Shown: positions 27,805 to 43,479, counted from the stretch's first letter. The stretch: DNA of 43,479 bases from Candidatus Kapaibacterium sp. (GCA_015490805.1 WFXC01000023.1:1-43479); one strand, 5' to 3'. The notes: a model not told the origin generated them from the sequence alone. A program made the numbers and translations.

Positions 27805-28515
27805 ATGCGGTACAGGAATGTTCTTGTCTTCCTTGGATGGCTTCTTTACAGCAGTACTCTTCTTTGGGCACAGAGTCTGGAGATCTTAGAACCTGTACCT
27901 GCGGTTATTACTGGGGCAACGGATGCATCTCAGTTAGAGTTCCATCTTTCCGTGCAAAACAAAAGCACACAAACGTTGAATGTCCGAGCAGCGATTGAAA
28001 TCTTAGAAGCGGAAGAAAATCACCTGATCTACTTCTGCTGGACAAACTGCTACGCTCCAGGAGTGTTGGAATCCCCCGATGTTGAAACCATCGCACCGGG
28101 AGAAATCAACAAAAAATTTGTGATATATCTCCGCCCTAACGGTACAGAAGGCACTTCAAAAGTTCGAGCGACTTTTTTTGTCGATGGCAATCCTGATGAC
28201 AAAGTATCGGCAATTGCAGAGTTCCAGGTAGGAACAATTGCTGGATTTGCGGATCATTTACCGAAAACGGTCCAGGTTCATCCGATCTACTTGAATGAAA
28301 TGTTCATCCAGTGGAAATACCGCATTCCCTTCCACTTTCAGACAGCCTCACTGAAGATTCTCAACATCTTGGGCAAAACTATCCGGACGTACTCACTCCA
28401 ATCCAACTCTGGTAATGTTCTGCTCGATCGTTCACTGCTTCCTTCAGGAATGTATTTCTATAGCTTGATCGTTGACGGGAAACCGTACTATACTGGAAGT
28501 CTGGTGCTGCCTTGA
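27805..28515 (+). CDS. small secreted T9SS cargo protein of unknown function
   Basis: The 236-residue protein has a signal peptide (1-22, ending LWA). A single beta-sandwich-like domain follows (about 23-145), with FHLSVQNKSTQTLNVRAAIE and IAPGEINKKFVIYL, a pattern like an Ig/CARDB-type extracellular domain. The C-terminus (about 160-236) is a T9SS type A sorting domain: LKILNILGKTIRTYSL, LLDRSLLPSGMYFYSLIVDG and a terminal strand YYTGSLVLP. It is therefore probably exported across the outer membrane and attached to the surface or released. No catalytic motif is seen. It has its own promoter candidate and ends at a bidirectional terminator. Confidence 0.87.
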   Translation: MRYRNVLVFLGWLLYSSTLLWAQSLEILEPVPAVITGATDASQLEFHLSVQNKSTQTLNVRAAIEILEAEENHLIYFCWTNCYAPGVLESPDVETIAPGEINKKFVIYLRPNGTEGTSKVRATFFVDGNPDDKVSAIAEFQVGTIAGFADHLPKTVQVHPIYLNEMFIQWKYRIPFHFQTASLKILNILGKTIRTYSLQSNSGNVLLDRSLLPSGMYFYSLIVDGKPYYTGSLVLP

Positions 28516-29128: not shown

Positions 29129-31180
29129 CTAAAACCGCAAAAGTTTTTGGAGAGTCTGCGCAATTTTCTCCGCCGTCGGCAACAAATGCTCCATCGATCG
29201 GCGATTGTAGGGAATGGGGCAATCGGGGACAGCCAGGCGTTCTACGGGAGCATCTAGGAACGTAAAAGCCTGCTGTACAATCGTTGCAGCAATTTCTGCT
29301 CCAAACCCTACGGTCCACGTATCCTCGTGTGCGATCAAGCAGCGGTTTGTTTTTCGCACCGATTCCAGCACCAGTGAATGATCCCACGGTACAATCGTTC
29401 GCAGGTCGATAACTTCCACATCTGCTCCAACCATTTCAACAGCTTCCAGGGCAGCATACAGCGTATCGCCCCACGAAATAATCGTTGCCTGCGTACCGGA
29501 TCGTACAATTGCCGCTTTACCAAACGGGATACCGTAATGGGGACCAGGATAGGGGCGGCGGGCTTTTGCAGCATCCAGCAATGCCCGATGTTCCAGGAAA
29601 ATCACCGGATCATCACCGCGCAGCGCCGACCGAAGTAGTCCGGCTGCGTCTTCTGCATTTGAAGGATAGGCAATTTTCCACCCTACCAGATGCGCAAAAA
29701 AGGCTTCACCTGAAACACTATGCCACGGATCTCCTGTTGCTCTGCTATAGCCCACCGGAATTCGGAGAACAACGGGTGCAGCAAAATCCCCATTAGTACG
29801 CCATCGAATCGTACCGCAATCATCGATCTGTTCCGTAGCAGGATCGGCATACTTGCGAAATTGAATTTCCGGCACTGGCAACAATCCTGCCAGCGCCATG
29901 CCCACTGCTCGCCCGACAATTCCTTCTTCTGAGAGCGAAGTATCGAACACTCGTTCCACCCCATATTTGAGCTGCAAATCCAGCGTGGCACCGTGTACCC
30001 CTCCTTTGACGCCCACATCTTCACCAAAGACCAGCATTCGGGGATTCAATTGCAATTCTTCATCCAGCACCTGCCGAATCGCCTCCACCATATTCACCCG
30101 GCGGCGAGAGGCTGGCGACGGCTGCTCCACCGTTGGCGGAAGTGAAACGCCCGCAGCTCTTAATCCTCCAACTTTTGGCAATGTGCCGTCAAAAAAGATG
30201 CGCTTGCGAATGGCTGCCGGTTCCGGTTCAGGGTCTGCTAACGCCTGCTGCAATGCCGTTTCAACTTCTGCTTCAACCTCACGTTCCAGCGTTTCCCATT
30301 TCCGCTTCGATAGAATGCGGCGCTTCTGAAGGAATGTTTGCAGGTGCTGTACTGGATCTCGTTCCTGCTCCCATTGCCGCTCTTCTTCCGACTTGTACGC
30401 TGCTGTATCTGCTGCTGAGTGCCCGCACAGTCGCACAACCTGCAAATGGATCAATGCCGGTTTTCGCTGCTGACGAACGTACTGCACAGCCGCTTCCACC
30501 AACGCCGCAGTCTGCTGCGGATCGGTACCGTCGCCATCGAAGATTTTCAGGTTGCGAAATGACCGCAAATTCTCGGCTATGTTCCCACCCGGTGTTTGCA
30601 GCGTATTGGGAACGCTAATGCCGTATCGATTGTCCTCGATGAAAAACAGGTAGGGCAGTGAAAGGGTTGTCACAATTGTCAACGCTGACCAGAAGCCATT
30701 GGTCGCTACGGATCCATCACCGCCCAGCGCCACTGCCAGCGCGCCATCCCATACTGAATCCTGCAACACCGTTCGGTGATATTCAATCGCCTGTGCCCAT
30801 CCAGCCGCTGGGGTATACTGCGCTCCCACGTCCCCGCTGGTTGGCAACACCGTTGCTCTACCGCGAGAAGGCAAATTGTGTACGACGCCGATGTCCCGTC
30901 CCCCGCTTCTCCCCGTTGCCTTTGCCATCGATCCTGCCAGTGCTTCCCGCGCGGTCAATCCCATTCCCAACACAAAGGGGCGCGATCGGTAGTACACCGT
31001 CGCTCCATCTTTCGGATGCGTAATGAATTGCGCTAATACTGCCTGCGCTAATTCGTGTCCCTTAGCCGAAAACTGATAGGTTACCAGTTTCTTCGGCAGC
31101 AATTCCGTCTCTTCAACCTCATCGATTTTTCGGGACAGCAATACCAGTCGTGCCGTTGCAATCCACTGTTCCCTGGTCAT
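29129..31180 (-). CDS. fused 2-oxoacid dehydrogenase E1 (alpha + beta subunits in one chain)
   Basis: The 683-residue cytosolic enzyme decarboxylates a 2-oxoacid with thiamine diphosphate and passes the acyl group to E2 lipoate. The alpha half (about 1-330) carries the ThDP/Mg motif GGDGSVATNGFW (about 155) to IEDNRYGIS (about 187). The beta half (about 350-683) has VFGEDVGVKGGVHGAT, FDTSLSEEGIVGRAVGMAL and PEIQFRKYADPATEQI. Such fusions are common in Bacteroidota/Chlorobiota and are usually assigned to pyruvate or branched-chain 2-oxoacids; I cannot choose between them. E2 and E3 are not in the window. ATG at 31180 is preceded by GGTGGAG. The longer frame to 31222 adds 14 atypical residues. 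Confidence 0.93.
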   Translation of the reverse strand: MTREQWIATARLVLLSRKIDEVEETELLPKKLVTYQFSAKGHELAQAVLAQFITHPKDGATVYYRSRPFVLGMGLTAREALAGSMAKATGRSGGRDIGVVHNLPSRGRATVLPTSGDVGAQYTPAAGWAQAIEYHRTVLQDSVWDGALAVALGGDGSVATNGFWSALTIVTTLSLPYLFFIEDNRYGISVPNTLQTPGGNIAENLRSFRNLKIFDGDGTDPQQTAALVEAAVQYVRQQRKPALIHLQVVRLCGHSAADTAAYKSEEERQWEQERDPVQHLQTFLQKRRILSKRKWETLEREVEAEVETALQQALADPEPEPAAIRKRIFFDGTLPKVGGLRAAGVSLPPTVEQPSPASRRRVNMVEAIRQVLDEELQLNPRMLVFGEDVGVKGGVHGATLDLQLKYGVERVFDTSLSEEGIVGRAVGMALAGLLPVPEIQFRKYADPATEQIDDCGTIRWRTNGDFAAPVVLRIPVGYSRATGDPWHSVSGEAFFAHLVGWKIAYPSNAEDAAGLLRSALRGDDPVIFLEHRALLDAAKARRPYPGPHYGIPFGKAAIVRSGTQATIISWGDTLYAALEAVEMVGADVEVIDLRTIVPWDHSLVLESVRKTNRCLIAHEDTWTVGFGAEIAATIVQQAFTFLDAPVERLAVPDCPIPYNRRSMEHLLPTAEKIAQTLQKLLRF

Positions 31181-31290
31181 CCCACTCCACCCTTTCCTGA
31201 TACCTTTGCAACAAAACAGCAAACTACAAATATCCGGAAATTTGGGCAGCTACAGGGTTTGCTCACGATACAGGACCGCAGTGTCACTTT

Positions 31291-33270
31291 TCAATGCGAC
31301 CGAACTGGATTCCGCACTTCGATCAGCACCGTTCGGCAGTAGTACCGTCCCTCCGGGATGGAATTGTCGTAGCGCAATTTTGACGGACCAATGCCTCTGA
31401 CCTCCACCAGATGCCCATCTGGTGTAACTTCTCGCAGAAATGCTGCAACGCTTTCTGCCCGCTTTTGAGACAACTCGATGTTGTACCGCCGTTCTCCCAG
31501 GCGATCGGTCGAGCCAATGATGCGGATTTCTGATTCAGGACGGACTGCTTCACCCACAAAGCGCCGCAGAATCACCCGGTTTTCAGGCGTCAACTCATAG
31601 CGATCAAAGTCAAACACGATGAGACTGAGCCGACTCAGCTCTACAGTATCCCGCGTTATGCGGACCGTAAGAGCCACCTGAGCAGAATCCTGTTGCTGCC
31701 GATCGTCTTGGATTCGTGCGGAAACTGCATTGCCGCTTCTATGACCTCCCAGATACTGGATAGTTTGTCCCCGCAATGGCAACCGCATTGGCGACTGCCG
31801 CAATTTTCCGCCACTCCACTGCTGAACCACTGTGTCCCCACTATGCAGTTGCAATCTCCACTGCGTCACTGCTGATAATGCCGGCTGCACCGTCAACGTC
31901 ACCGTAAGCGCTGAATCCTTTGCGTCATATTCAAAGAAACGCGAATGCACGACCGGAGCCAGCAGCAGCGGGTCATCGCTGTACAGCTCCACCCGGCGAT
32001 TTTCTTCCCATCCTTCCCGGTACGCTTCACTGGATGCAAATTCGGGCAGGAAGCGCCATTCGATGCGCAAGCGTTTGGGATCGATGTCCCACTCATTGAT
32101 CAAAAAATCAGCTACCGCCGCTGCTCGCTGACGCGCCAATTCCCGCTGTGCCTTTTCATCAGCCGCTTCATCATTCCGCGCAATTCCCACAATCCGCAAG
32201 GTCGCGTGAGGCATCTGCTGCATTCGCTTACCGATAATTGACAGCAGAGCATAGTAAATGGGCAACATCGAGCGCGGTAGTTGCTGCTCAGTAAATTGCT
32301 CTTTGTCTTCCGGCACCCACCGGTACCGCTGCAGGAGTTGAGCAGATGCACTGTCAAAGAACAGGTAAGGCAACAACGGAAAAGTTTCGGTAACAACCAT
32401 TTGCCGAAGCCGGAGTGTATCAACCCAAAGTCGTTGAAGAACCAGCGCTGGCGGCGTTGTCGGAGACTCCGGAGGCGACACTGTCGGTGGAGCTGGAGCC
32501 TCTGGCTTTCGCGGTTTCGGAGCTGAGAACATCCGGTACTGGATTCCCAGTCCAAACTGGAAGTGGTGAATCTTCCACTCTGCATCTGCTAATACCGAAT
32601 TGAGTCCGTATCGATAGCCACCCTCCAGCAGCAGCGAGACAGCGTTGCCAACCGGCACTGCCATACTGATTGCGCCGCTAACGCCATAGCTGGTCGTTGT
32701 TTGCGGCACCTCACCGCTGGATAGCAAATGGCGTCGGGTTCCGTCCGGGAATCGGACTCCGTCCGGTGATTGGATCGATTCATAGGTCTCAAATGCTGTT
32801 CCCAGCAATGGCATTCCTGCATCCACTCCCAGTCGGAGGGTGAGTGGAAAGGCTGAAAGCACTGGCAACTGATAGGCGATGCCAAGGTCGGCAAAGAGGT
32901 ATTGCAGCGTAGACTGATACTCATACTGGACAACCAGTGGCTCATACGTGCCGCTCCGGGGATTATAGACTTCAAAATTCGACTGCACTGCCTGCAATTC
33001 TGCCAGTTTGCGATGGTAGCTTCCAGCCAGCGATACAAAAAGCGGCAACGAACCGATCCGATACTCCCATCGAATGCTGCCCCATTGCCCCAGCGCAGTG
33101 CCATTGCCAAACTGCCCGCACTCAGTACTTCCCGGAAACACCGGCATTGTCGAAATATTCCACAGGCGGGTTAGACCACCAACGACAGCGATCCGACTCT
33201 GCTCCATCGGTTGTGCCATTGCTATTACGACACCAAGCATTACCCCTACAGCCAGCAAGAATCTTCCCAT
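31291..33270 (-). CDS. OmpA-family outer-membrane protein with two OmpA-like modules
   Basis: The 659-residue protein has a signal peptide (1-19, ending AMA before Q20). Residues about 25-235 alternate as beta strands (FPLTLRLGVDAGMPL, SLLLEGGYRYGLNS, FQFGLGIQYRMFS), which fits an eight-strand outer-membrane barrel of the PorT/OmpA type. A Pro-rich linker (about 238-260) follows. The first OmpA-like module (about 285-425: LFFDSASAQLLQRY to RRVELYSDDP) is followed by a beta-sandwich (about 430-535). A second OmpA-like module ends the protein (about 540-655: FDFDRYELTPEN, GSTDRLGERRYNIELSQKRA). OmpA modules bind peptidoglycan. It is downstream of the giant-protein gene on the same strand. The start has AAGGGGAAG upstream. 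Confidence 0.85.
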   Translation of the reverse strand: MGRFLLAVGVMLGVVIAMAQPMEQSRIAVVGGLTRLWNISTMPVFPGSTECGQFGNGTALGQWGSIRWEYRIGSLPLFVSLAGSYHRKLAELQAVQSNFEVYNPRSGTYEPLVVQYEYQSTLQYLFADLGIAYQLPVLSAFPLTLRLGVDAGMPLLGTAFETYESIQSPDGVRFPDGTRRHLLSSGEVPQTTTSYGVSGAISMAVPVGNAVSLLLEGGYRYGLNSVLADAEWKIHHFQFGLGIQYRMFSAPKPRKPEAPAPPTVSPPESPTTPPALVLQRLWVDTLRLRQMVVTETFPLLPYLFFDSASAQLLQRYRWVPEDKEQFTEQQLPRSMLPIYYALLSIIGKRMQQMPHATLRIVGIARNDEAADEKAQRELARQRAAAVADFLINEWDIDPKRLRIEWRFLPEFASSEAYREGWEENRRVELYSDDPLLLAPVVHSRFFEYDAKDSALTVTLTVQPALSAVTQWRLQLHSGDTVVQQWSGGKLRQSPMRLPLRGQTIQYLGGHRSGNAVSARIQDDRQQQDSAQVALTVRITRDTVELSRLSLIVFDFDRYELTPENRVILRRFVGEAVRPESEIRIIGSTDRLGERRYNIELSQKRAESVAAFLREVTPDGHLVEVRGIGPSKLRYDNSIPEGRYYCRTVLIEVRNPVRSH

Positions 33271-33586
33271 TGCGTTCTTCCCCTTTTACTTTCCGAAATC
33301 GAAAGATACGAAATCCCCGGCAGCCGTGCTCTGTCCCCGGCATTCTCCGGAGCATAGTTCCTACCTTTGGGCATTTCAAATCTACCCAACCGTTACAAAG
33401 AGTGATCTGGAGGAATCCTCCCATTTGCCACTTAGCACAATGCCACTAAGCGTACACACTTTTGCACGCGATCGCTGTACTTCCTTTTACGGCAAGCGTC
33501 TGCTGAAGCCTTACTGGCGCAATGTTCTCAAAACGTCGGTTTAGGCGACTCGTTCCGACCAGTGCAACGGTCTTCGGACTTCAGCG
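33271..33586. other. 316-bp intergenic stretch
   Basis: I see no gene between the end of the giant-protein gene and the start of the OmpA-type gene (both minus strand). The stretch must carry the OmpA-type promoter if that gene is not read through. TATCTTTC on the minus strand near 33307-33300 is a one-mismatch candidate. No strong hairpin was found. Confidence 0.5.
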
Positions 33587-36500
33587 TTACGGCAGCAGCA
33601 GCAATTGCAACGCTGGCGGTGTCACCGTACGGTCAGGAGCGGGCGCACAACTACCACCCCAGTAATGCCAGGCAACAGCCCAATAGCGGAAGCGGGACAG
33701 ATCCGATCGGTACAGGGTTGGATTCCACGTTCCACTGGCAATGCGCTGTACAATGCGCCGCTCATCCGCCCGCAATTTCCGGTTCAATGCCCACGGAAAG
33801 TGTGCAGGATTCAGTCTCAGAAGTTCCAGCATATGCGTATGAGATCGCCCAGCATAACATCGCACGAGCCACTGTCCCGTAATGGGAGCTCGCTCCTTCC
33901 GATTCCGCCGATCCCAGCGGTGCCCTGTTCGCTGCTCAAAGGTTCGGATAAATGCATCTTCCACCAGCAGGCGAGCTGCGCGGGGACGGGCAAAGGCAAC
34001 ATAATCCCACCACGCTATTGCTGGCAAATCCAGACGAACGGTGACAGTCGGAAGCCCGGTATTCAGGCGATAAATGATGCGATACGGATTGGGAAAGTAC
34101 GCGTCCCGAATCTCCCATTCCTGCAGCGGCGATTTTGGCATCAGTCCCGACACCGAAACACCCGTCATCCGATCCAGCATCAGCGGTGATCTACCGCCTG
34201 CAGCGAAGCCAGCAATGCGGTGCACTGGCTGGTACAACCACGGTTCTACGCGCTGTCGCCAATACAGGCTGGTTCGTGGATACTGCGGTTGCACATCCCG
34301 CGGATGAATACTCCCCGATAGCCACTGCAAATCATATATGTCGAACCATTCACCAGCGAAATCCGGCTTTCGGTACTCAATGCCCGTTACGAGACCGGAT
34401 GGCGCCACGACGGCTCGCACCGACCCTCTTTGAAAAATGGCTGAAATCTTTTGCTGCAGGGTTCGATATCGACTCGTGCGGAAATGATACACGTACATTA
34501 GCTTCTCACCAGATCGAGTTCGAAGACTTGGCAACCGCCGCTGCCGCAATTCCACCGTTGTTCCCCGTCGCTGGAGAAATTGCACCCATCGCTCCTGCAA
34601 TCTGGATCGGATACCGTAATCAGTCTCGGCACGCGAGGCGATGAGGTCGCTACGCTCCTGAATCCGCACCTTGAGTACTTGCAGCCCGTAAATCGTTGCT
34701 GTCTGCAACTGTGACGGGATGGGGAAACGAATGCGACGTCTGCTATACGTTGCGTTTACTTCCACTGGATCCTGACCACCTGCGGGAATAAATCGCACCT
34801 TCAGCCGATACCCTTCTTCAGCCAGCAACGAACGCATTCCTCGCCGCAACTGGATAAACCCATCCGGACACTGATCGATCAAGAAATACCGCTGATTCTT
34901 GCGGGGATACATCGACGCAATGTTGGATTCAGGGATACGATCGGGTGCTGGACCAGTCCGAAACCGGTGCTCCATCGTTTGCACTGCCAGCGAACCATTT
35001 GCTTTTCGTACATCCTGCCACCGCCCACCGATCCATTCCTGCCCTTTGACTGCCACGCGCACCCGATGCCACGTACTGCCTGCCAGCATTTCATCCGGCT
35101 CTAAGGTCGCAACGATACGATCATCGTCCAGCGTCCATCTGCCCAGCAAGGGAGAACTTCCGCGCCGATCCTGGCGAAGCGTAAATTCTGTAATGAGCAG
35201 TCGGAACGTACGGATGCGCGGCTCTCCGTCTTCGTCCAGCTCTTCAATCTCAAACGGCTGATTTGCCACAAAGTTAAAAGCTGCCTGTGGACTTACGAAG
35301 ACACTGACGTTTTGCGCTCCGTCCTGCGGTTGCAGATCGGCAATCATATCCAGCTCGAAGGGAGTCAACCGTGGCGGGGAGCACCGGCTGCCGATGCGAA
35401 ATTCAAAATTGCAGTACCCCTTAATGGTTCCGCCCAATGCAGAGAACCGTCCACCAACAGCTCCTTCCAGCCACGTGGGATTGGGCATTCCCGCTGTAAG
35501 CCGGGCAGCGGTTTCCAGTTCCAGAATCGAAACATTGCCTTTAAAAAACCACACATCGACATACATTCCAATCTCACCAGCAACATAGGCGTACACCTGT
35601 CCCGAAGCATACCACCCGTTGAGTCCCGGTTCAGAATATCCTTCGCATCGCAATATGCCTCGATAATCCAGCAACGAGACGTCATACCCCATCAGAAACC
35701 GGAGTCGTGCGTAGAACACCAGAAACTGGAGCCGTCCGGAATCAAAACGCAATTCCTGCCCAAAAGCCATTCCCTTCCCCTGAGAAATCAATGCACTATT
35801 CCGCAGCATTGGTGGTGGCGCTCCCAGCAACGCAACAACTTCCTCCGGCAGTGGGGGAATCGGATCCAGGCGTGTCCCCATCTGGAAGTACGATCCTACT
35901 GATGGCAAGTGCAGATCGCCGATGCCCAGGCTTACGCCTACGCGCGCAGTCGGACGTCCAATCCAGAAATACCAGCTATCCGATGCAACGTGCAGCACCA
36001 TCTGTCCCCCGCCACGAAGGAGTCCGGCTCCGCGGGGTGCATCGATATTCACATCAAACGTGCCGTCCAGCACAAGGGAGGGTTCAAAATTCAGTTGAAG
36101 AACCAGTGTTCCCCAGAGTGGTGCTTTGCGTCGTTGATTCAGTTGACACAACATCCAGTAATCTCCCTGAAGCCGAATAAAGCGGATTCCTCCACCCGTA
36201 CCGGTTGAGAATTCCGCTTCCAGCGCCACATCGCCATTGAGCACAAACGGATCCGGATGCGTTCCCAGTGCTACCATTGCCCGCAGCCCGAAAGAGCCAG
36301 AGCCATCGGGGATAAAGCGAAAACCAGAAGCAGTCGCTCCCGGCACGGCAGGATCGGCGGTTCGAGAATCGGTCGGTGGTGCTGCGACTTCTCCCACCCG
36401 CTGCATATTGTACCACGCACCTCCGCCAAAGCCATAGATTCCCACTCCCGCTCCAACCGGGATGCCAGCGGGAAGATAGGCACGCACATCCACGAACCAG

Positions 36501-39500
36501 TAGCGGTAATCGGAAACGGCGCCAAATTGTACGACTCCGCTCGCTGACACTAACTGGGCAATCTCAGCCGACACTTCACCCCGGAAGCCGTTGCCAAATG
36601 TCGGATCTTCACTGTAAAACGACAGGCGCCCTTCGATAGATGCTGCAGCGCCCAGATCCGCCGCCAGACGAATTTCATCCAGCCGGACCTGACAAAAGCC
36701 CAGCCGCCACCGCGGTGCCCGCTGCAAAGCGCCCCAGAATGATACGGTTGTTCCCCCGCTAATCCCCGCGCTGGATTCCGCAAAGAGATTGAGATCGACA
36801 CCAAAGCGGAGCGCCGCTCCGGGTTGTCCCTCGCAATCTCCGGTCACAATGCGTACTTCTCGAATACTCAGCGGAAAGCCTGCCAGCGTATGTTGCGGAC
36901 TGGCAAATGCCCAGTTTCCAGACTCAAACTGAATGCGATCCCCCACACTGCGCACCCCAAATCCTTCAAAATCAACGCCCCGGAAGTCAATACCTGGAAG
37001 GCGTGGCAAATCGCCAGCCAATCGCAGTTGCCCATTCAGCAGAACGGTCGGCAGAAATCGTCCACTTTCAACTCGCAGTTCAAAAGTAGAGCTGGGTAGA
37101 ATTGCCAGTCTGCCGATTCGGGTCAGCGGAAAATTCAACGTGTCGCGAGCTTGCACCTGGAACACGAAGGAAAGCGAGCCAGTCGTTGAGCGATTGAGCA
37201 GCCCTCGATAGTCCAGCGTCGAATCCGACACCGGCACGCTTAACCGACCGTGGATCAACGCTTCACGAAATGCTGATTGCAGAATCCGCAACCGCAGCGT
37301 GTCGATACTCCCACCCCAGTTGTTAAAATCGACATTGTCCGCAACATTGGTCGCCTCTATGGTGAGCGTTACGCCGGTGCCATCGATCAGCACCTGCTCC
37401 AGCCCGACTCTGGGACCTTCGGTTGCGCCGGTACGGTGGAACTCATCCGGCAACTGGAGGAACAATCCGGACAGATAGAACCCCATCCAGGTGGAGTCTT
37501 TCGCTCCACGGTAATCCGATGGGAAGCGGAGCGTTCGGGGATTGCTATGAGCAGAGACATCAAGCGCAAAATGGATCGGGGAACTGCCCCGCAACCGAAA
37601 GCCGGGCGCCTGCGTCAGAGCGCATTCCTGAAGTTGCCCTTCCAGTACAAAGCCCCACTGACTGCGCGGAGATCGCTCCAGCCGCGCCGTTGCTCGCCCG
37701 CGCACGTGCTGCGTCGGATCGGTAATCACCTGCCCGGCAGCATCGATGGGTAACAGCACGTGACGGGAAAACGCCACTTCCACATCCAGTTGAAACGCCC
37801 GGAATCCGGAGCAATCCCACTCCAGGTAAGTTCCTCGATCTTCTGCAGAGCGCCAGCCGCGGAACAGCACCTCCCACGTCGGCACATCATCCCGACCTTC
37901 GCGATCGGAAAGGACGATATCCGATGGCAGATACAGAATGCCATCCACAAGATTCAATCCGCCGGGATGGAAGCAGATCGCTCGCGCTCCTATGCCAATC
38001 CCATTGCCCGGTCCCATTAGATCCGGCAGTTCGATCCACGCCACCACATTGAGCCGCCCGCCCGGATAGGTCATCGTCGAAGGTCGGAACACGGCACCCA
38101 CCAGTGCAATAATCACGCGGCGCGATCCAATCACCCGATCCAATCCAACGGGAAGTGTGAGAGGTTCATCACCACTGAGCACGCTCAGCAGTCGGCGACC
38201 GGTGCGAAGATAGGCGTCGATGCTCCGTATTTCTTCCTGTCCCAAATCTCGAGCTCCCGCCTCAATGGCATTCGCTATTTCTGCTGACAAAGGAGCATCA
38301 TCGGCGATCACTGCCCGCGCTTCTCCCTGATATACCTGATTATCCGTGTTCACCTGAAGATCATCGAATTCCACCAGCAGCCGCATTCCGCTTCCAGCGG
38401 TCGGCAGTCGGAATGCCGGAATCTCGATTACGCCCCGCCCTCGCAACGCCGTCGGCGATGCATTCTCCAGTTGGGTAATGGTTAGCGTAAAAGCGCCAAT
38501 GGCAATACGATCGCCAACGGCAAGTGGCTCGCTACGCGGTGTCCTGTTCGTCACAGGCGGCGTTTCACACCGATAGACACACGGTCCTTCGTCAGGCTGA
38601 TACCGAAAGCGGGCAACGCGACTGGTGATCACTGTTCGCTCACAGCCGACACCATCTTCCCGAACTGTCGCTGCATCAACCTCGAACCCAAACTGCCACA
38701 AATACCACTGCCCAACGTCTGCGGTAAAGGTCACCGTTGCGCCGGTAGTGTTAATGGTACGAAACATCACCTGTTCTGCGCCGGCAGCATACGGCGCAAA
38801 GCTGGCGAAATCACTCCCTTCAAATGCTCGATGGAACACCGGCGTCCGTACTACGACCGTTGCCGAATCTTCATCTTCTGATTCCATCCGCCAGACTTTT
38901 ACCCACCCACGGCGTATACCGGCTGGCTGCACTGATGGCTGCACCACGCCCCGGAATACCGGTTGCGCCACTGGTATAGTACCCTCCGGTGTCAGGGGTC
39001 GGAGTACCAGACAGGTAGCTGGATCGATCGGCTCACTCTCTTCCCCAACGATCTGGAATCGCCACACCGGACCGGTCAGGTATGGATTCCCGTCATCATC
39101 CAGATACTGAACCCGCCAGTAGTACGTTCCCGTCGTTGTCAGTGGTGGTGTCTGAAGCTGCCTGAGCTGGAAGAATTCCGCACATTCATCGCCAATCCGG
39201 TAGAGATCCGACGCCGGATGCTGTGTCGTTGCAGTCGTTACAATACTTCGAAATTCTGAATCCCGTGCAACCTCAATCCGCACCTGCTCCTGTGCCCACG
39301 GGATGTGAAGAAATGAACGGCGACGAATGATCGACACCATTTCTTCAGGGGTGTAGTTCAGCGCAGCCGGCACCGGAGTCTGCCACCGCAGCCGTACCTG
39401 CATCCCCTGCGGAAACCGCGCCATCTCTGGTGGTGCTTCACGGTTCGGCTTCCGAAGTCCAAGCGTAAAAATCCGGGGTTCCGTTTCGACGACCGTCGTA

Positions 39501-40735
39501 CTTCCATCTGCCCATCGGAAGGTTGCCCGAACCCACCAGCGATACGACTGTCCCCGCCGTAAACGACCCGACCAATCCAGACTCTCCCCATCGTCACTGA
39601 TCGCATTCACAAAGTGATACGTCGCCCGCTCCGGGGACACTCCCTGCGAACGCGCTGGACCTTGGGGCCAACGGACATTCCGTTCATTCGTCAACCGTAC
39701 GCCCCCGCCTTCCACAACGACCTCAAATCGCGCACCGCGCAAACTATCGCTGTACGGCTCAAAACGAACGATGAGCAGAGGATGTCGCCACGGAATGGTA
39801 TCGCCGTTTTGGGGCCAATGAGGTATAAGCCGCAACCGCTGGCGTGTTTCTCCCTCCTCTGATGAACGATCGGAAGCAAATCCAAAAACGGCAATCTCAC
39901 TTTTGCCCTCATTGTCACCACGAACGGCTATGGGGCGACCAAATTGGTCCAGTACCTGAACCTGCCAGGCAAATCGCTCCGCTCCTGTAATCGATCGGAA
40001 CGATGGATCGCCAAACTGATATTGGTAAGAAACGCCTGTTATCACCTGCTCAAACAGCGGAGCATTCCGGTCAATGGCTTCCCGCGGTGACTGGTCTGCA
40101 AAAACGGGAACGATCAGCAGTCGATACTGTGGTGAAATATCTGGCGGTACTGGCGTGACGCCCGTCCACTGGAATAGCGGCGGCGAACGATCCGGATCGG
40201 GAAGATCAAATCGATCCTTCGGCGCTAACAGTATCGGAGGCTCCGGTAGCAAGATCTCAAAGGTTGGACAAACAGCATACCGATGCAACACCGTACCGGT
40301 AGCGTCCAACAGCCAGACGCAGTACGTATACACTCCTTCAGGTAACTGCTGTGTGCGAAGCGCCTGCCGCTCTACGGTAGGATCCGCAATATCAATGCCG
40401 CCGGACTGATACAGTTCGGGTGGCGCGATGTCCGGTCCGGTTAGCACCGTTAGTCCCGGCGGGAAGTGGAAGCGTGGAACGGCTGGATCGCCGGGATCCA
40501 TTGTCACAATGGGCTTGCCGTCCTTCTGGATCTCGAAAATCACCCGGATGTCCGAGTACACGTCCTTGCTATCGTTCCGGATGAAAATTCGCACAATGTT
40601 CGGATTGCGGCTCCACTCTGACAGTGCGGCTGGCGTCGGCCGCTGAATCTGGACACTCTGGATCCGCAGTGTCTGGGAAACGATCACAAGTGGAAACAGG
40701 AAGCTCAAAATAAGACATCGGAGCCATAATTTCAT
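33587..40735 (-). CDS. giant secreted beta-rich protein with TANFOR-like N-terminus, 2382 residues
   Basis: The signal peptide is residues 1-20 (MKLWLRC, hydrophobic core, VVS-type end before Q21). The start ATG at 40735 has ACAGGAGT upstream; an earlier Met at 40789 would bury the signal peptide. Residues about 21-270 resemble the TANFOR domain that I recall from large Bacteroidota proteins (LEI-type strands, EGVYTYCVWLLD). Fibronectin-III-like units follow to about 600. A Cys-containing segment lies near 710 (CVYRCETPP), and a long beta-rich stretch covers about 720-1780, with FDDLQVNTDNQVYQGEA, Asp-Tyr-Arg-Gly motifs and a Gly-rich GVGIYGFGGGAWYNM near 1435. An SbsA-like Ig unit (LQPQDGAQNVSVF, about 1800-1920) precedes an Arg/Trp/Tyr-rich C-terminus. 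No T9SS signal is visible at the end. The function is unknown; I infer an envelope or surface scaffold. Confidence 0.85.
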   Translation of the reverse strand: MKLWLRCLILSFLFPLVIVSQTLRIQSVQIQRPTPAALSEWSRNPNIVRIFIRNDSKDVYSDIRVIFEIQKDGKPIVTMDPGDPAVPRFHFPPGLTVLTGPDIAPPELYQSGGIDIADPTVERQALRTQQLPEGVYTYCVWLLDATGTVLHRYAVCPTFEILLPEPPILLAPKDRFDLPDPDRSPPLFQWTGVTPVPPDISPQYRLLIVPVFADQSPREAIDRNAPLFEQVITGVSYQYQFGDPSFRSITGAERFAWQVQVLDQFGRPIAVRGDNEGKSEIAVFGFASDRSSEEGETRQRLRLIPHWPQNGDTIPWRHPLLIVRFEPYSDSLRGARFEVVVEGGGVRLTNERNVRWPQGPARSQGVSPERATYHFVNAISDDGESLDWSGRLRRGQSYRWWVRATFRWADGSTTVVETEPRIFTLGLRKPNREAPPEMARFPQGMQVRLRWQTPVPAALNYTPEEMVSIIRRRSFLHIPWAQEQVRIEVARDSEFRSIVTTATTQHPASDLYRIGDECAEFFQLRQLQTPPLTTTGTYYWRVQYLDDDGNPYLTGPVWRFQIVGEESEPIDPATCLVLRPLTPEGTIPVAQPVFRGVVQPSVQPAGIRRGWVKVWRMESEDEDSATVVVRTPVFHRAFEGSDFASFAPYAAGAEQVMFRTINTTGATVTFTADVGQWYLWQFGFEVDAATVREDGVGCERTVITSRVARFRYQPDEGPCVYRCETPPVTNRTPRSEPLAVGDRIAIGAFTLTITQLENASPTALRGRGVIEIPAFRLPTAGSGMRLLVEFDDLQVNTDNQVYQGEARAVIADDAPLSAEIANAIEAGARDLGQEEIRSIDAYLRTGRRLLSVLSGDEPLTLPVGLDRVIGSRRVIIALVGAVFRPSTMTYPGGRLNVVAWIELPDLMGPGNGIGIGARAICFHPGGLNLVDGILYLPSDIVLSDREGRDDVPTWEVLFRGWRSAEDRGTYLEWDCSGFRAFQLDVEVAFSRHVLLPIDAAGQVITDPTQHVRGRATARLERSPRSQWGFVLEGQLQECALTQAPGFRLRGSSPIHFALDVSAHSNPRTLRFPSDYRGAKDSTWMGFYLSGLFLQLPDEFHRTGATEGPRVGLEQVLIDGTGVTLTIEATNVADNVDFNNWGGSIDTLRLRILQSAFREALIHGRLSVPVSDSTLDYRGLLNRSTTGSLSFVFQVQARDTLNFPLTRIGRLAILPSSTFELRVESGRFLPTVLLNGQLRLAGDLPRLPGIDFRGVDFEGFGVRSVGDRIQFESGNWAFASPQHTLAGFPLSIREVRIVTGDCEGQPGAALRFGVDLNLFAESSAGISGGTTVSFWGALQRAPRWRLGFCQVRLDEIRLAADLGAAASIEGRLSFYSEDPTFGNGFRGEVSAEIAQLVSASGVVQFGAVSDYRYWFVDVRAYLPAGIPVGAGVGIYGFGGGAWYNMQRVGEVAAPPTDSRTADPAVPGATASGFRFIPDGSGSFGLRAMVALGTHPDPFVLNGDVALEAEFSTGTGGGIRFIRLQGDYWMLCQLNQRRKAPLWGTLVLQLNFEPSLVLDGTFDVNIDAPRGAGLLRGGGQMVLHVASDSWYFWIGRPTARVGVSLGIGDLHLPSVGSYFQMGTRLDPIPPLPEEVVALLGAPPPMLRNSALISQGKGMAFGQELRFDSGRLQFLVFYARLRFLMGYDVSLLDYRGILRCEGYSEPGLNGWYASGQVYAYVAGEIGMYVDVWFFKGNVSILELETAARLTAGMPNPTWLEGAVGGRFSALGGTIKGYCNFEFRIGSRCSPPRLTPFELDMIADLQPQDGAQNVSVFVSPQAAFNFVANQPFEIEELDEDGEPRIRTFRLLITEFTLRQDRRGSSPLLGRWTLDDDRIVATLEPDEMLAGSTWHRVRVAVKGQEWIGGRWQDVRKANGSLAVQTMEHRFRTGPAPDRIPESNIASMYPRKNQRYFLIDQCPDGFIQLRRGMRSLLAEEGYRLKVRFIPAGGQDPVEVNATYSRRRIRFPIPSQLQTATIYGLQVLKVRIQERSDLIASRAETDYGIRSRLQERWVQFLQRRGTTVELRQRRLPSLRTRSGEKLMYVYHFRTSRYRTLQQKISAIFQRGSVRAVVAPSGLVTGIEYRKPDFAGEWFDIYDLQWLSGSIHPRDVQPQYPRTSLYWRQRVEPWLYQPVHRIAGFAAGGRSPLMLDRMTGVSVSGLMPKSPLQEWEIRDAYFPNPYRIIYRLNTGLPTVTVRLDLPAIAWWDYVAFARPRAARLLVEDAFIRTFEQRTGHRWDRRNRKERAPITGQWLVRCYAGRSHTHMLELLRLNPAHFPWALNRKLRADERRIVQRIASGTWNPTLYRSDLSRFRYWAVAWHYWGGSCAPAPDRTVTPPALQLLLLP

Positions 40736-40833
40736 CAGAAAACTCCTGTATCGATTGAACCGATTACTTGTTGTCATCTCCGAAACCACTCCCCTCAGTC
40801 AGGTAACCGTACTGTACCGGGCAGTGGAGCAAA

Positions 40834-42489
40834 CTACCAATTCACACTGTAGCGCACCGACCCTCGCAGAAACTGCACTTCTGAATTTTCCGATGTTGTG
40901 GACTGGAGCAGAAACAGCAGGGATAACTTGCCAAACGGTTTCAGCGAATAATGCCCGGAAAATCGAAGAAAGAAATTTTCCGACTGCTGCGATGCCACTT
41001 CCTGTATGCCGTATCCAGCACTGCCCAGCAGTTCCAGCGACTTGAATACCGGCACACGAATCGTCTCGCTGATGTTGAGCATACTGGGCGCTGGATTTTC
41101 TCCCGCTTCGTTCTTCGATCCAAAAATGGTGGTGGTAAAAATCCAGTTGTTCGGTAGTTGCAGGGCATAGGCGATGTTGAGAGAATGTCCCTGAAATTGC
41201 TGCTGCTGCGCTGTTACCACATTGTGATCCACAACGCTGGAGTAGGAATACCCAACGGCAATGGAATGTCGAAGGGTTCCCGTCAGAAACCGAAAGGAAG
41301 GATTGAAGTTGAACATCTGAGAGATGGTAGACACGCGCAGCGTGTCGTTGACGTGATTCGAACGAATGCCGTAATTGGTATAGGAAGCAGCAACACTGAC
41401 AGCAGAACTGAGTTGCGCTGACAGATTTACAGATCCAATGAGGCGCTGTGTTGTTGCCAGCTTGTCCTGGAGCAAATTGTTCTGCTGAAGCCCAATCGAC
41501 CCGCTGAGAATGAGTCGGGAATTGAGCAATCGAACTGTTGGTGCAAGCGTAATTCGCCCGATGTCATTGATCAACTGCGTATATCCGAGCGTTACGTAGC
41601 CGGGACCTATCCATTCCCCACGGACGCGCACATTCCACCAACTGCGCGGGTTGAGGGTCAGCTCCACTTTTGCCGCTCCATCGACGCTGGTAGAATAGCG
41701 GGGAACAAAAATCCATCGGGGGATACTCTCTGCCGCCGACGTTTCGGGAAAGCGGAGGTCACGGGTAAAGGCGGCAACGGCAACCTCTCCACGGAAATGG
41801 AGCGAAGAAGTCAGCGGCAGTGCCAGCATTAGGGATCCCGCAAGGTTCTCCATCGCTGGCAACTGGAGCGTATCCGGTAGAGAGGTTGAATCATCAATAG
41901 CGTGCATCAACGACAGCAGTACCGTCACCCCATCGAGCGATTGCACCCCTGCTTTCAGTGCCCAGAACCAGCGGTCATACTCTCCCAGGAATGTTCCCTG
42001 TGGCAGGCGGGCGTGACGCCCCAGTCCATACAGAAAGCCAATATAGAATGGTCCAGGTGTCAACTCGATGCCGCCGCCTAAGATTCGTTGATCTCCGAAC
42101 GTCAGCGGCGAGAAAGTCAACGAAAAATATCCGCCATAGAGTCGCAACCAGCGTGCCGCCTGCAAACTGGCGCCAAACTGATTGAACGGCTGTCGATACC
42201 CCACCTCCCGATTGGTCAGCCGCAATTGAAATGGCAACTGAATCTGATCGAACAACGTCAGGCGGGCAGAGAGCAGAACACGTCCCACGAAGCGATCCGC
42301 AAACGGATACCGATAAAAAGCTCCAGACCCCTGCTGTTGATTATACTCTCCTATCACCTGCACGTTTCCGGACAACCGCACCCACGACGGCGAAGAAGAT
42401 GGATCACCAGCGACTGCCGACCCTCCATACCATCCGAGGATAACAATGGTGATCACCCAGAGGACTCGACAGCAAGCAACATTTTCCAT
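40834..42489 (-). CDS. outer-membrane beta-barrel protein of unknown function
   Basis: The 551-residue protein has a signal peptide (1-27, ending AVA). From residue about 33 to the end it shows alternating polar/hydrophobic strands with aromatic girdles, such as VRLSGNVQVIGEY, LQAARWLRLYGGYFSLTFSPL, GGGIELTPGPFYIGFLYG and SVAASYTNYGI. The chain ends in VRYSVNW, and an aromatic last residue in a final strand is what the BAM machinery recognises. The size fits about 20 or more strands. ATG at 42489 has AAGGAG 6 nt upstream; the frame to 42537 adds a non-signal leader. The giant-protein gene starts 98 bp downstream on the same strand, so the two may act together. Transport substrate, if any, is unknown. 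Confidence 0.82.
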   Translation of the reverse strand: MENVACCRVLWVITIVILGWYGGSAVAGDPSSSPSWVRLSGNVQVIGEYNQQQGSGAFYRYPFADRFVGRVLLSARLTLFDQIQLPFQLRLTNREVGYRQPFNQFGASLQAARWLRLYGGYFSLTFSPLTFGDQRILGGGIELTPGPFYIGFLYGLGRHARLPQGTFLGEYDRWFWALKAGVQSLDGVTVLLSLMHAIDDSTSLPDTLQLPAMENLAGSLMLALPLTSSLHFRGEVAVAAFTRDLRFPETSAAESIPRWIFVPRYSTSVDGAAKVELTLNPRSWWNVRVRGEWIGPGYVTLGYTQLINDIGRITLAPTVRLLNSRLILSGSIGLQQNNLLQDKLATTQRLIGSVNLSAQLSSAVSVAASYTNYGIRSNHVNDTLRVSTISQMFNFNPSFRFLTGTLRHSIAVGYSYSSVVDHNVVTAQQQQFQGHSLNIAYALQLPNNWIFTTTIFGSKNEAGENPAPSMLNISETIRVPVFKSLELLGSAGYGIQEVASQQSENFFLRFSGHYSLKPFGKLSLLFLLQSTTSENSEVQFLRGSVRYSVNW

Positions 42490-42805: not shown

Positions 42806-43479
42806 CTACCGCACCACCACCACTGGCACCACAATCACCCGATCCCCTCTCCATAACCGTACGTAGTACGTCCCACTTCTCGAAAGCTCCACCCACGCTT
42901 CCCGCTCTCCTGCTCCCTGGTTCCGCTGATACACCACTCGCCCCACCAGATCCCGAATCTCTATCGACCAGCCTTCCTCCGACGGATACCGCACCCGTAT
43001 CCATCCCCGACTCGGATTCGGACTCACCACCCCTGCTACCCTCTCCAGCCTCACCTGTCCCATCCCCGTCACTACATCCGCACTGCTGCCTTCCAACTGT
43101 ACCCAGTTGCTCACCTTCCCTCCACCCTCTGCTCGCAGATACACCACGACCAGTTCCTTCTTCGGATCCACCCAGATCCCGATGGTTGTATCCACCACCA
43201 CCGTATCCATCACTTTCTTCGGCAATCCCTTGGCGTTTGCTAAGTTATCATCGTCCTCATATACCACTACCCGATACCGCTCGGCTCCCGCCACTGGCCG
43301 CCACCGAATCAGAAACGGGACCTCTTTCACCCTGAATCTCCGATACGCCCAGTACCACAACGTATCATACTCCGGTGTTACTTTAACTCGATACCGATGC
43401 CGATCGTACACAAACGGTCGGCGCAGCAACTCCCCCGGCCGATACACAAAGGCATACTCCGGTCCTCCTATGATGATCC
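42806..43479 (-). CDS. secreted T9SS cargo protein, C-terminal part (N-terminus beyond right edge)
   Basis: The open frame runs from the right edge to the stop at 42806, giving 223 residues. The first 130 include a fibronectin-III-like unit (FLIRWRPVAGAERYRVVVYE, then KELVVVYLRAEGGGKVSNW). The C-terminus is a well-formed T9SS type A sorting domain: SPNPSRGWIRVRY, IEIRDLVGRVVYQRN, LSRSGTYYVRLWRG and a final strand VIVVPVVVVR. The product should therefore be secreted through the T9SS. The enzymatic or binding part, if any, is outside the window. The frame is open through the edge (GGPEYAF precedes the first possible GTG at 43447), so the true start is not visible. Confidence 0.88.
   Translation of the reverse strand, partial: IIIGGPEYAFVYRPGELLRRPFVYDRHRYRVKVTPEYDTLWYWAYRRFRVKEVPFLIRWRPVAGAERYRVVVYEDDDNLANAKGLPKKVMDTVVVDTTIGIWVDPKKELVVVYLRAEGGGKVSNWVQLEGSSADVVTGMGQVRLERVAGVVSPNPSRGWIRVRYPSEEGWSIEIRDLVGRVVYQRNQGAGEREAWVELSRSGTYYVRLWRGDRVIVVPVVVVR

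Follow-up and report, generated by a model that had tools for sequence, protein, structure and literature searches.

TANFOR toxins (TIGR02542) of the phylum Bacteroidota were described in 2020 by Jana, Salomon and Bosis without a demonstrated export route. The passages of that paper on these toxins report FN3-protein genes and substrates of the type IX secretion system (T9SS) as neighbors and propose T9SS export on neighborhood grounds; over 95% of TANFOR-bearing genomes have a T9SS, and T9SS substrates are enriched nearby (PMC7073777). Here, a giant protein with a homologous N-terminal module (N-module) was analyzed, which is encoded beside an outer-membrane beta-barrel in a 43,479-nt stretch of Candidatus Kapaibacterium sp. 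(GCA_015490805.1 WFXC01000023.1:1-43479; contig C22 of a 2.67-Mb genome; hereafter the window). The giant shares with the TANFOR toxins, as described in those passages, the N-module, a signal peptide, large size, and the phylum, and its relatives share the FN3-protein neighbors. Relatives in which the N-module is a gene of its own (split loci) also share the toxin domains and immunity-like genes. In contrast, TIGR02542 does not match the window giant directly, neither a recognized toxin nor an immunity gene is present, and the N-module of this giant is fused to a long beta-rich core. From homology and gene neighborhoods, the barrel and the giant probably form a dedicated two-partner outer-membrane unit, in which the N-module docks the giant on a barrel that anchors or exports it.

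Three other described systems resemble the pair in part. T9SS type B substrates, which have been linked to PorP-like barrels (PMC9143113), are likewise giant surface proteins of Bacteroidota each with an adjoining barrel gene (PorP/SprF), whereas no C-terminal T9SS signal was found on the window giant and the window barrel is larger. Two-partner secretion (type Vb, TpsA/TpsB) offers a resemblance in working, as there too a barrel gene is dedicated to one large secreted protein that bears an N-terminal module; however, the window pair gave no TPS, POTRA, or ShlB Pfam match, 26 strands are predicted against 16, and an Ig/FN3-like region serves as the partner module. Among the solved barrels listed by VIA-align, the MtrB conduit and the chaperone-usher pores come closest in size and fold, but identity is 9-12%, and the window barrel gave no MtrB_PioB or Usher Pfam match. 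It also lacks the usher plug and an accompanying chaperone gene; its likeness to ushers is in the barrel fold only.

Pairing of the barrel and the giant

The barrel gene (40834..42489, minus strand) encodes 551 aa with a signal peptide, as judged from the open reading frame (ORF) and an AlphaFold2 model. The giant gene follows on the same strand (33587..40735; a secreted protein of 2,382 aa, by ORF), its start taken as the ATG at 40735 of an open frame that begins slightly further upstream. The sequence-only reading had placed these two and a gene for an OmpA-type protein side by side on the minus strand, and its positions, lengths, and gaps (98 and 316 bp) all matched the ORF calls; the signal peptides it had assigned to all three agree with direct reading of the N-termini, each of which is signal-peptide-like. 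Among the three products, only the OmpA part was recognized by Pfam and NCBIfam. Because the gene family and gene order were found again in about 100 other genomes, the arrangement is more than chance. A promoter and terminator scan of the locus gave scores below the shuffle background.

Relatives of the giant were found in 69 of the 99 genomes of the order, and the barrel and giant genes were adjacent in 16 of 17 neighborhoods from its other genera. A scan of genome contigs yielded 340 relatives of the core, and in most of the 80 loci read from these the two genes were again adjacent. By their record names, the 80 loci included Kapabacteria, Ignavibacteria, Cytophagales, Flavobacteriia, Chitinophagales, Bacteroidales, and Rhodothermota.

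The reverse direction was covered by an evenly drawn sample of 148 Bacteroidota genomes, each of which was searched with the N-module profile and, independently, with the barrel profile; two genes on one strand and no more than 10 kb apart counted as a pair. TIGR02542 was too weak as a probe for this purpose (matches in three of 247 genomes at E 1e-5), and the N-module profile A4 was therefore used in its place. A barrel was near 50 of the 61 N-module genes, and an N-module was near 48 of the 54 strong barrel matches (E up to ~1e-20), with a median gap of 154 bp; by a rough estimate (20 kb in ~4 Mb, one strand), chance would account for well under 1%. The N-module and the barrel each occurred in 35 genomes and together in 33, the barrel lying upstream in 33 pairs and downstream in 15. 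The barrel profile was built from giant-derived loci and somewhat favors such barrels, a bias that cannot account for the pairing since it cannot create adjacency in other genomes. Barrel matches with E-values from 1e-8 to 1e-20, mostly ORFs of ~800-930 aa and many in genomes without an N-module match, were excluded. The core was found in just 15 sampled genomes, which makes the pair rather than the core the basic unit.

Additionally, the two families were found in a single chain. At locus L183 (9636-12479, minus strand), one 947-aa ORF joins an N-module (residues 22-270) to a barrel (residues 361-923), which argues for direct contact between them. Within the window's own genome, where three of the four N-module genes adjoin a barrel, the N-terminus of the giant is found again in a 3,264-aa protein at C6 and in a 699-aa RCC1-repeat protein at C38, both with barrel paralogs. 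The barrel family reaches up to four copies per genome. The pairing is thus well supported by homology, reciprocal adjacency, and natural fusions, and the side-by-side occurrence that the sequence-only reading had named as a check was found for these two genes across the order, in the 80 loci, and in the 148-genome sample.

Several observations concern individual loci of the family. At L183, two more N-module proteins (1,203 and 1,719 aa) adjoin the fusion ORF. At C38 (L058 3-11334), two ORFs of 1,081 and 1,338 aa with no clear Pfam family directly precede the N-module and RCC1-repeat protein, which is followed by a barrel of 624 aa; a similar N-module and RCC1 protein lies beside a barrel in G019 (L181). 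Three N-module proteins of ~6,400 aa (G111:C7, G130:C39, and G220:C91) have no nearby barrel, and each of these genomes also holds a barrel without a nearby N-module (at C3, C50, and C13, respectively), possibly a distant partner.

Structure and homology of the partners

The claim of an outer-membrane barrel was upheld by AlphaFold2, which gave 26 long strands (mean pLDDT 87.9), the first beginning at residue 37. By the model and fold comparison, the barrel is wide and unplugged, with a size near that of ushers and MtrB. Among the VIA-align matches listed, where a missing PDB family was not counted as excluded, the nearest solved folds were MtrB, OprD-type porins, TonB-dependent receptors, and ushers. 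MtrB was the best PDB fold (Z 19.6 over 442 residues, rmsd 6.1), and the ushers FimD and PapC gave Z ~16 over 375 residues. Searches of the barrel sequence against Pfam (E 0.1), NCBIfam, and PDB sequences returned no match.

The N-module of the giant (39725..40735, minus strand; delimited by profile A4 and hhalign) comprises the signal peptide and a TANFOR-type and Ig/FN3-like region. Its description as TANFOR-like holds as remote homology in profile-profile comparison and fails as a direct match, as TIGR02542 did not match the giant at E 0.1. The fused-type N-module alignment (A5) matched the toxin N-modules (A6) in hhalign with a probability of 99.7% and E 1.5e-26, and A4, of which the window sequence is itself a member, matched the window N-module at E 4.5e-83. 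Of the 28 sequences in the N-module alignment, 20 were matched by TIGR02542 (best E 8e-14), and its matches to the toxin N-termini of split loci, with a best E of 4e-10, stayed under the curated cut-off.

The core (34325..38608, minus strand; delimited by profile A1) has a gene of its own in Flavobacteriia and Cytophagales. That the giant is beta-rich was confirmed for a segment of 1,200 aa (38614-35015), predicted as nearly all beta with pLDDT 81 and a pTM of only 0.46. The best Foldseek rows were LptD, ApoB, and ushers, with weak E-values of ~1e-4; residues 575-1076 of the model aligned to porins and ushers with Z ~13, while TM-scores were 0.1-0.15 and rmsd mostly 10-13 A. Like the barrel, the core has no sequence relative in the PDB, and no known annotation was found for giant, core, or barrel in Pfam, NCBIfam, or PDB sequences. 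The giant appeared broken at L059 6528-13797 (single-contig genome G005) and at L084, into slightly overlapping ORFs of 1,821 and 611 aa, where a frameshift, a sequencing error, and a real split are all possible.

Neither a barrel nor a core partner is mentioned in the passages on TANFOR toxins in PMC7073777, which fits the absence of domain models for both families. A search of the open literature, with most subscription papers and all preprints outside its scope, found nothing on the barrel-giant pair. TANFOR proteins themselves are known, whereas previous descriptions appear to be lacking for their barrel partner, the core, and the fused form without a toxin.

Cargoes, proposed mechanism, and rival explanations

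In the 80 loci, N-module and core formed one protein in 34 and separate genes in 18. The split loci of Flavobacteriia and Cytophagales run in the order barrel, TANFOR toxin, immunity-like ORF, core, and FN3 protein. C-terminal toxin domains of the split N-module proteins included AHH, Endonuclea_NS_2 (twice), EndoU, and ART. The ORFs right after them, mostly of 137-360 aa and followed by the core, had no Pfam match, and their position suggests immunity genes; the split N-module proteins thus have the marks of polymorphic toxins. The window giant differs, as no toxin domain was recognized in it by Pfam or NCBIfam, no immunity gene lies directly downstream, where a 316-bp gap leads to the OmpA-type gene, and its C-terminus is common to the members of the genus and L081.

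Barrel and giant are usually accompanied by a further partner, an FN3-repeat protein of ~700 aa. In the neighborhoods read within the order, the three genes were arranged tightly on one strand as barrel, giant, and FN3-repeat protein, and the FN3 gene directly followed the core in 63 of the 75 loci with room for it, with the barrel between them in five more. In the window's genome, the FN3 ortholog is encoded elsewhere, at C27 (47% identity).

According to the mechanism we propose, the giant would be exported by Sec to the periplasm, where its TANFOR-type N-module may bind the 26-stranded barrel encoded next to it. At the outer membrane, the barrel would hold the giant and perhaps pass it through, and the long beta-rich core could thereby be displayed outside the cell. 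Elsewhere in Bacteroidota, this module and barrel are combined with interchangeable cargoes: toxins (nucleases or ADP-ribosyltransferases) with immunity-like genes, proteins with RCC1 repeats, and giants 3,000-6,400 aa long. The window version has the module fused to the core and no recognized toxin attached. Docking is the most likely relationship on comparative grounds, namely adjacency, fusions, and repeated pairs with different cargoes, and the barrel may act as an exporter or as a mere anchor. A stronger form, in which the barrel serves as outer-membrane translocon in a so far unrecognized two-partner secretion of Bacteroidota that works independently of the T9SS, recognizes the TANFOR-type module, and takes substrates including polymorphic toxins and giants of up to ~6,400 aa, is possible but rather doubtful.

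Several observations weigh against the two-partner unit. No POTRA or other known export domain was found in the barrel, the core model remains uncertain given its low pTM, and 11 of the 61 N-modules had no nearby barrel; these include the three ~6,400-aa giants and a further N-module protein of the window's own genome, at C15, for which no barrel was found. Furthermore, a T9SS is present in this genome and could perform the export. Its presence is indicated by SprA, encoded at C43, and by two window proteins (27805-28515, plus strand, and 42806-43477, minus strand) with C-terminal sorting signals just under the Pfam cut-off. With SprA at hand, the T9SS might export the N-module proteins and leave the barrel to serve only as anchor or receptor on the surface, the part that PorP/SprF-like barrels play for type B substrates, and both the genome-wide and neighborhood association of TANFOR proteins with the T9SS (PMC7073777, in its passages on these toxins) and the link of type B substrates to PorP-like barrels (in the part of PMC9143113 on that link) point in this direction. 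We nevertheless regard this route as unlikely. No T9SS C-terminal domain was detected on a whole split toxin, ten toxin C-termini, the core, or the FN3 protein, and the window giant gave no Por_Secre_tail or CHU_C match in the same scan in which the two window genes above did; the barrel, with its 26 predicted strands, matched no Pfam family and hence not PorP_SprF. The giant was also considered as a SprA-like translocon itself and rejected, as it gave no TIGR04189 match and the SprA of the genome is the protein at C43.

The remaining explanations fare worse. The matches of the core to LptD, ApoB, porins, and ushers would suit a machine of the outer-membrane or bridging type that transports lipids or glycans, with an LptD/TamB-like groove or a second large barrel and the 26-strand barrel as the exit pore. 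This appears quite improbable, since the TM-scores, rmsd, and pTM are poor, the N-module and barrel are common without the core (35 versus 15 genomes), and the toxin cargoes of relatives are unsuited to lipid transport. Still less probable is the machine of pore, scaffold, and cell-wall anchor that the sequence-only reading had proposed from all three genes: the common strand, the 316-bp gap, and conservation in three species of the genus speak for it, but the OmpA ortholog is adjacent to the giant in none of 23 other genomes and has other conserved neighbors there, and the regular further partner is the FN3 protein. Inherited synteny without a functional link is hardly credible. Close relatives often keep gene order, yet the barrel-giant pairing is phylum-wide, occurs in both gene orders and as several paralogous pairs per genome, and includes the L183 fusion; reciprocal pairing in the 148-genome sample refutes this explanation in practice.

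For the two-partner unit, the pairing brings a barrel family without a domain model, adjoining most such N-modules and fused to one, into the question of the route by which such toxins and giants arrive at the surface. It names one gene to delete and one interface to predict, and makes the route directly testable. It also gives a first functional context to three unannotated families, the barrel, the core, and the N-module giants.

The OmpA-type gene and other features

The OmpA-type gene (31291..33270, minus strand; 659 aa; PF00691 at E 3.1e-19 for the whole protein) probably lies outside the barrel-giant system. Of the two peptidoglycan-binding-like modules claimed for it, an OmpA-like stretch scored 52.0 bits against a Pfam cut-off of 27.2, while the second scored 25.3 bits (E 3.5e-5), just under it. 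A barrel of its own in the N-terminal half was not confirmed, no Pfam match being found there.

Of the 99 genomes of the order, 83 held an ortholog of this gene. The ortholog and the core giant occurred together in 23 genomes outside the genus and were adjacent in none. In 21 of these the two lie on different contigs, which does not strictly rule out nearness at contig ends. In single-contig G005 they lie 552 kb apart, and in G075 ~10 kb apart, with the OmpA gene behind genes on both strands. Among nine OmpA neighborhoods outside the genus, none but that of G075 held the giant, barrel, or FN3 gene. Adjacency was common only to three close species of the genus, in which the OmpA protein is 93% identical. 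The OmpA gene was thus ruled out by synteny as a third partner, and the role of cell-wall anchor, without adjacency in other genera, has no comparative support; from these neighborhoods, we conclude that the OmpA gene joined the giant only in this genus.

Eight further dual-OmpA paralogs were found in the window's own genome, at C10 (two), C11, C14 (two), C21, C23, and C28, a sizeable expansion. Elsewhere in the window, at 29129-31222 on the minus strand, a 697-aa protein fuses both halves of a 2-oxoacid dehydrogenase E1 (E1_dh, Transket_pyr, and Transketolase_C).
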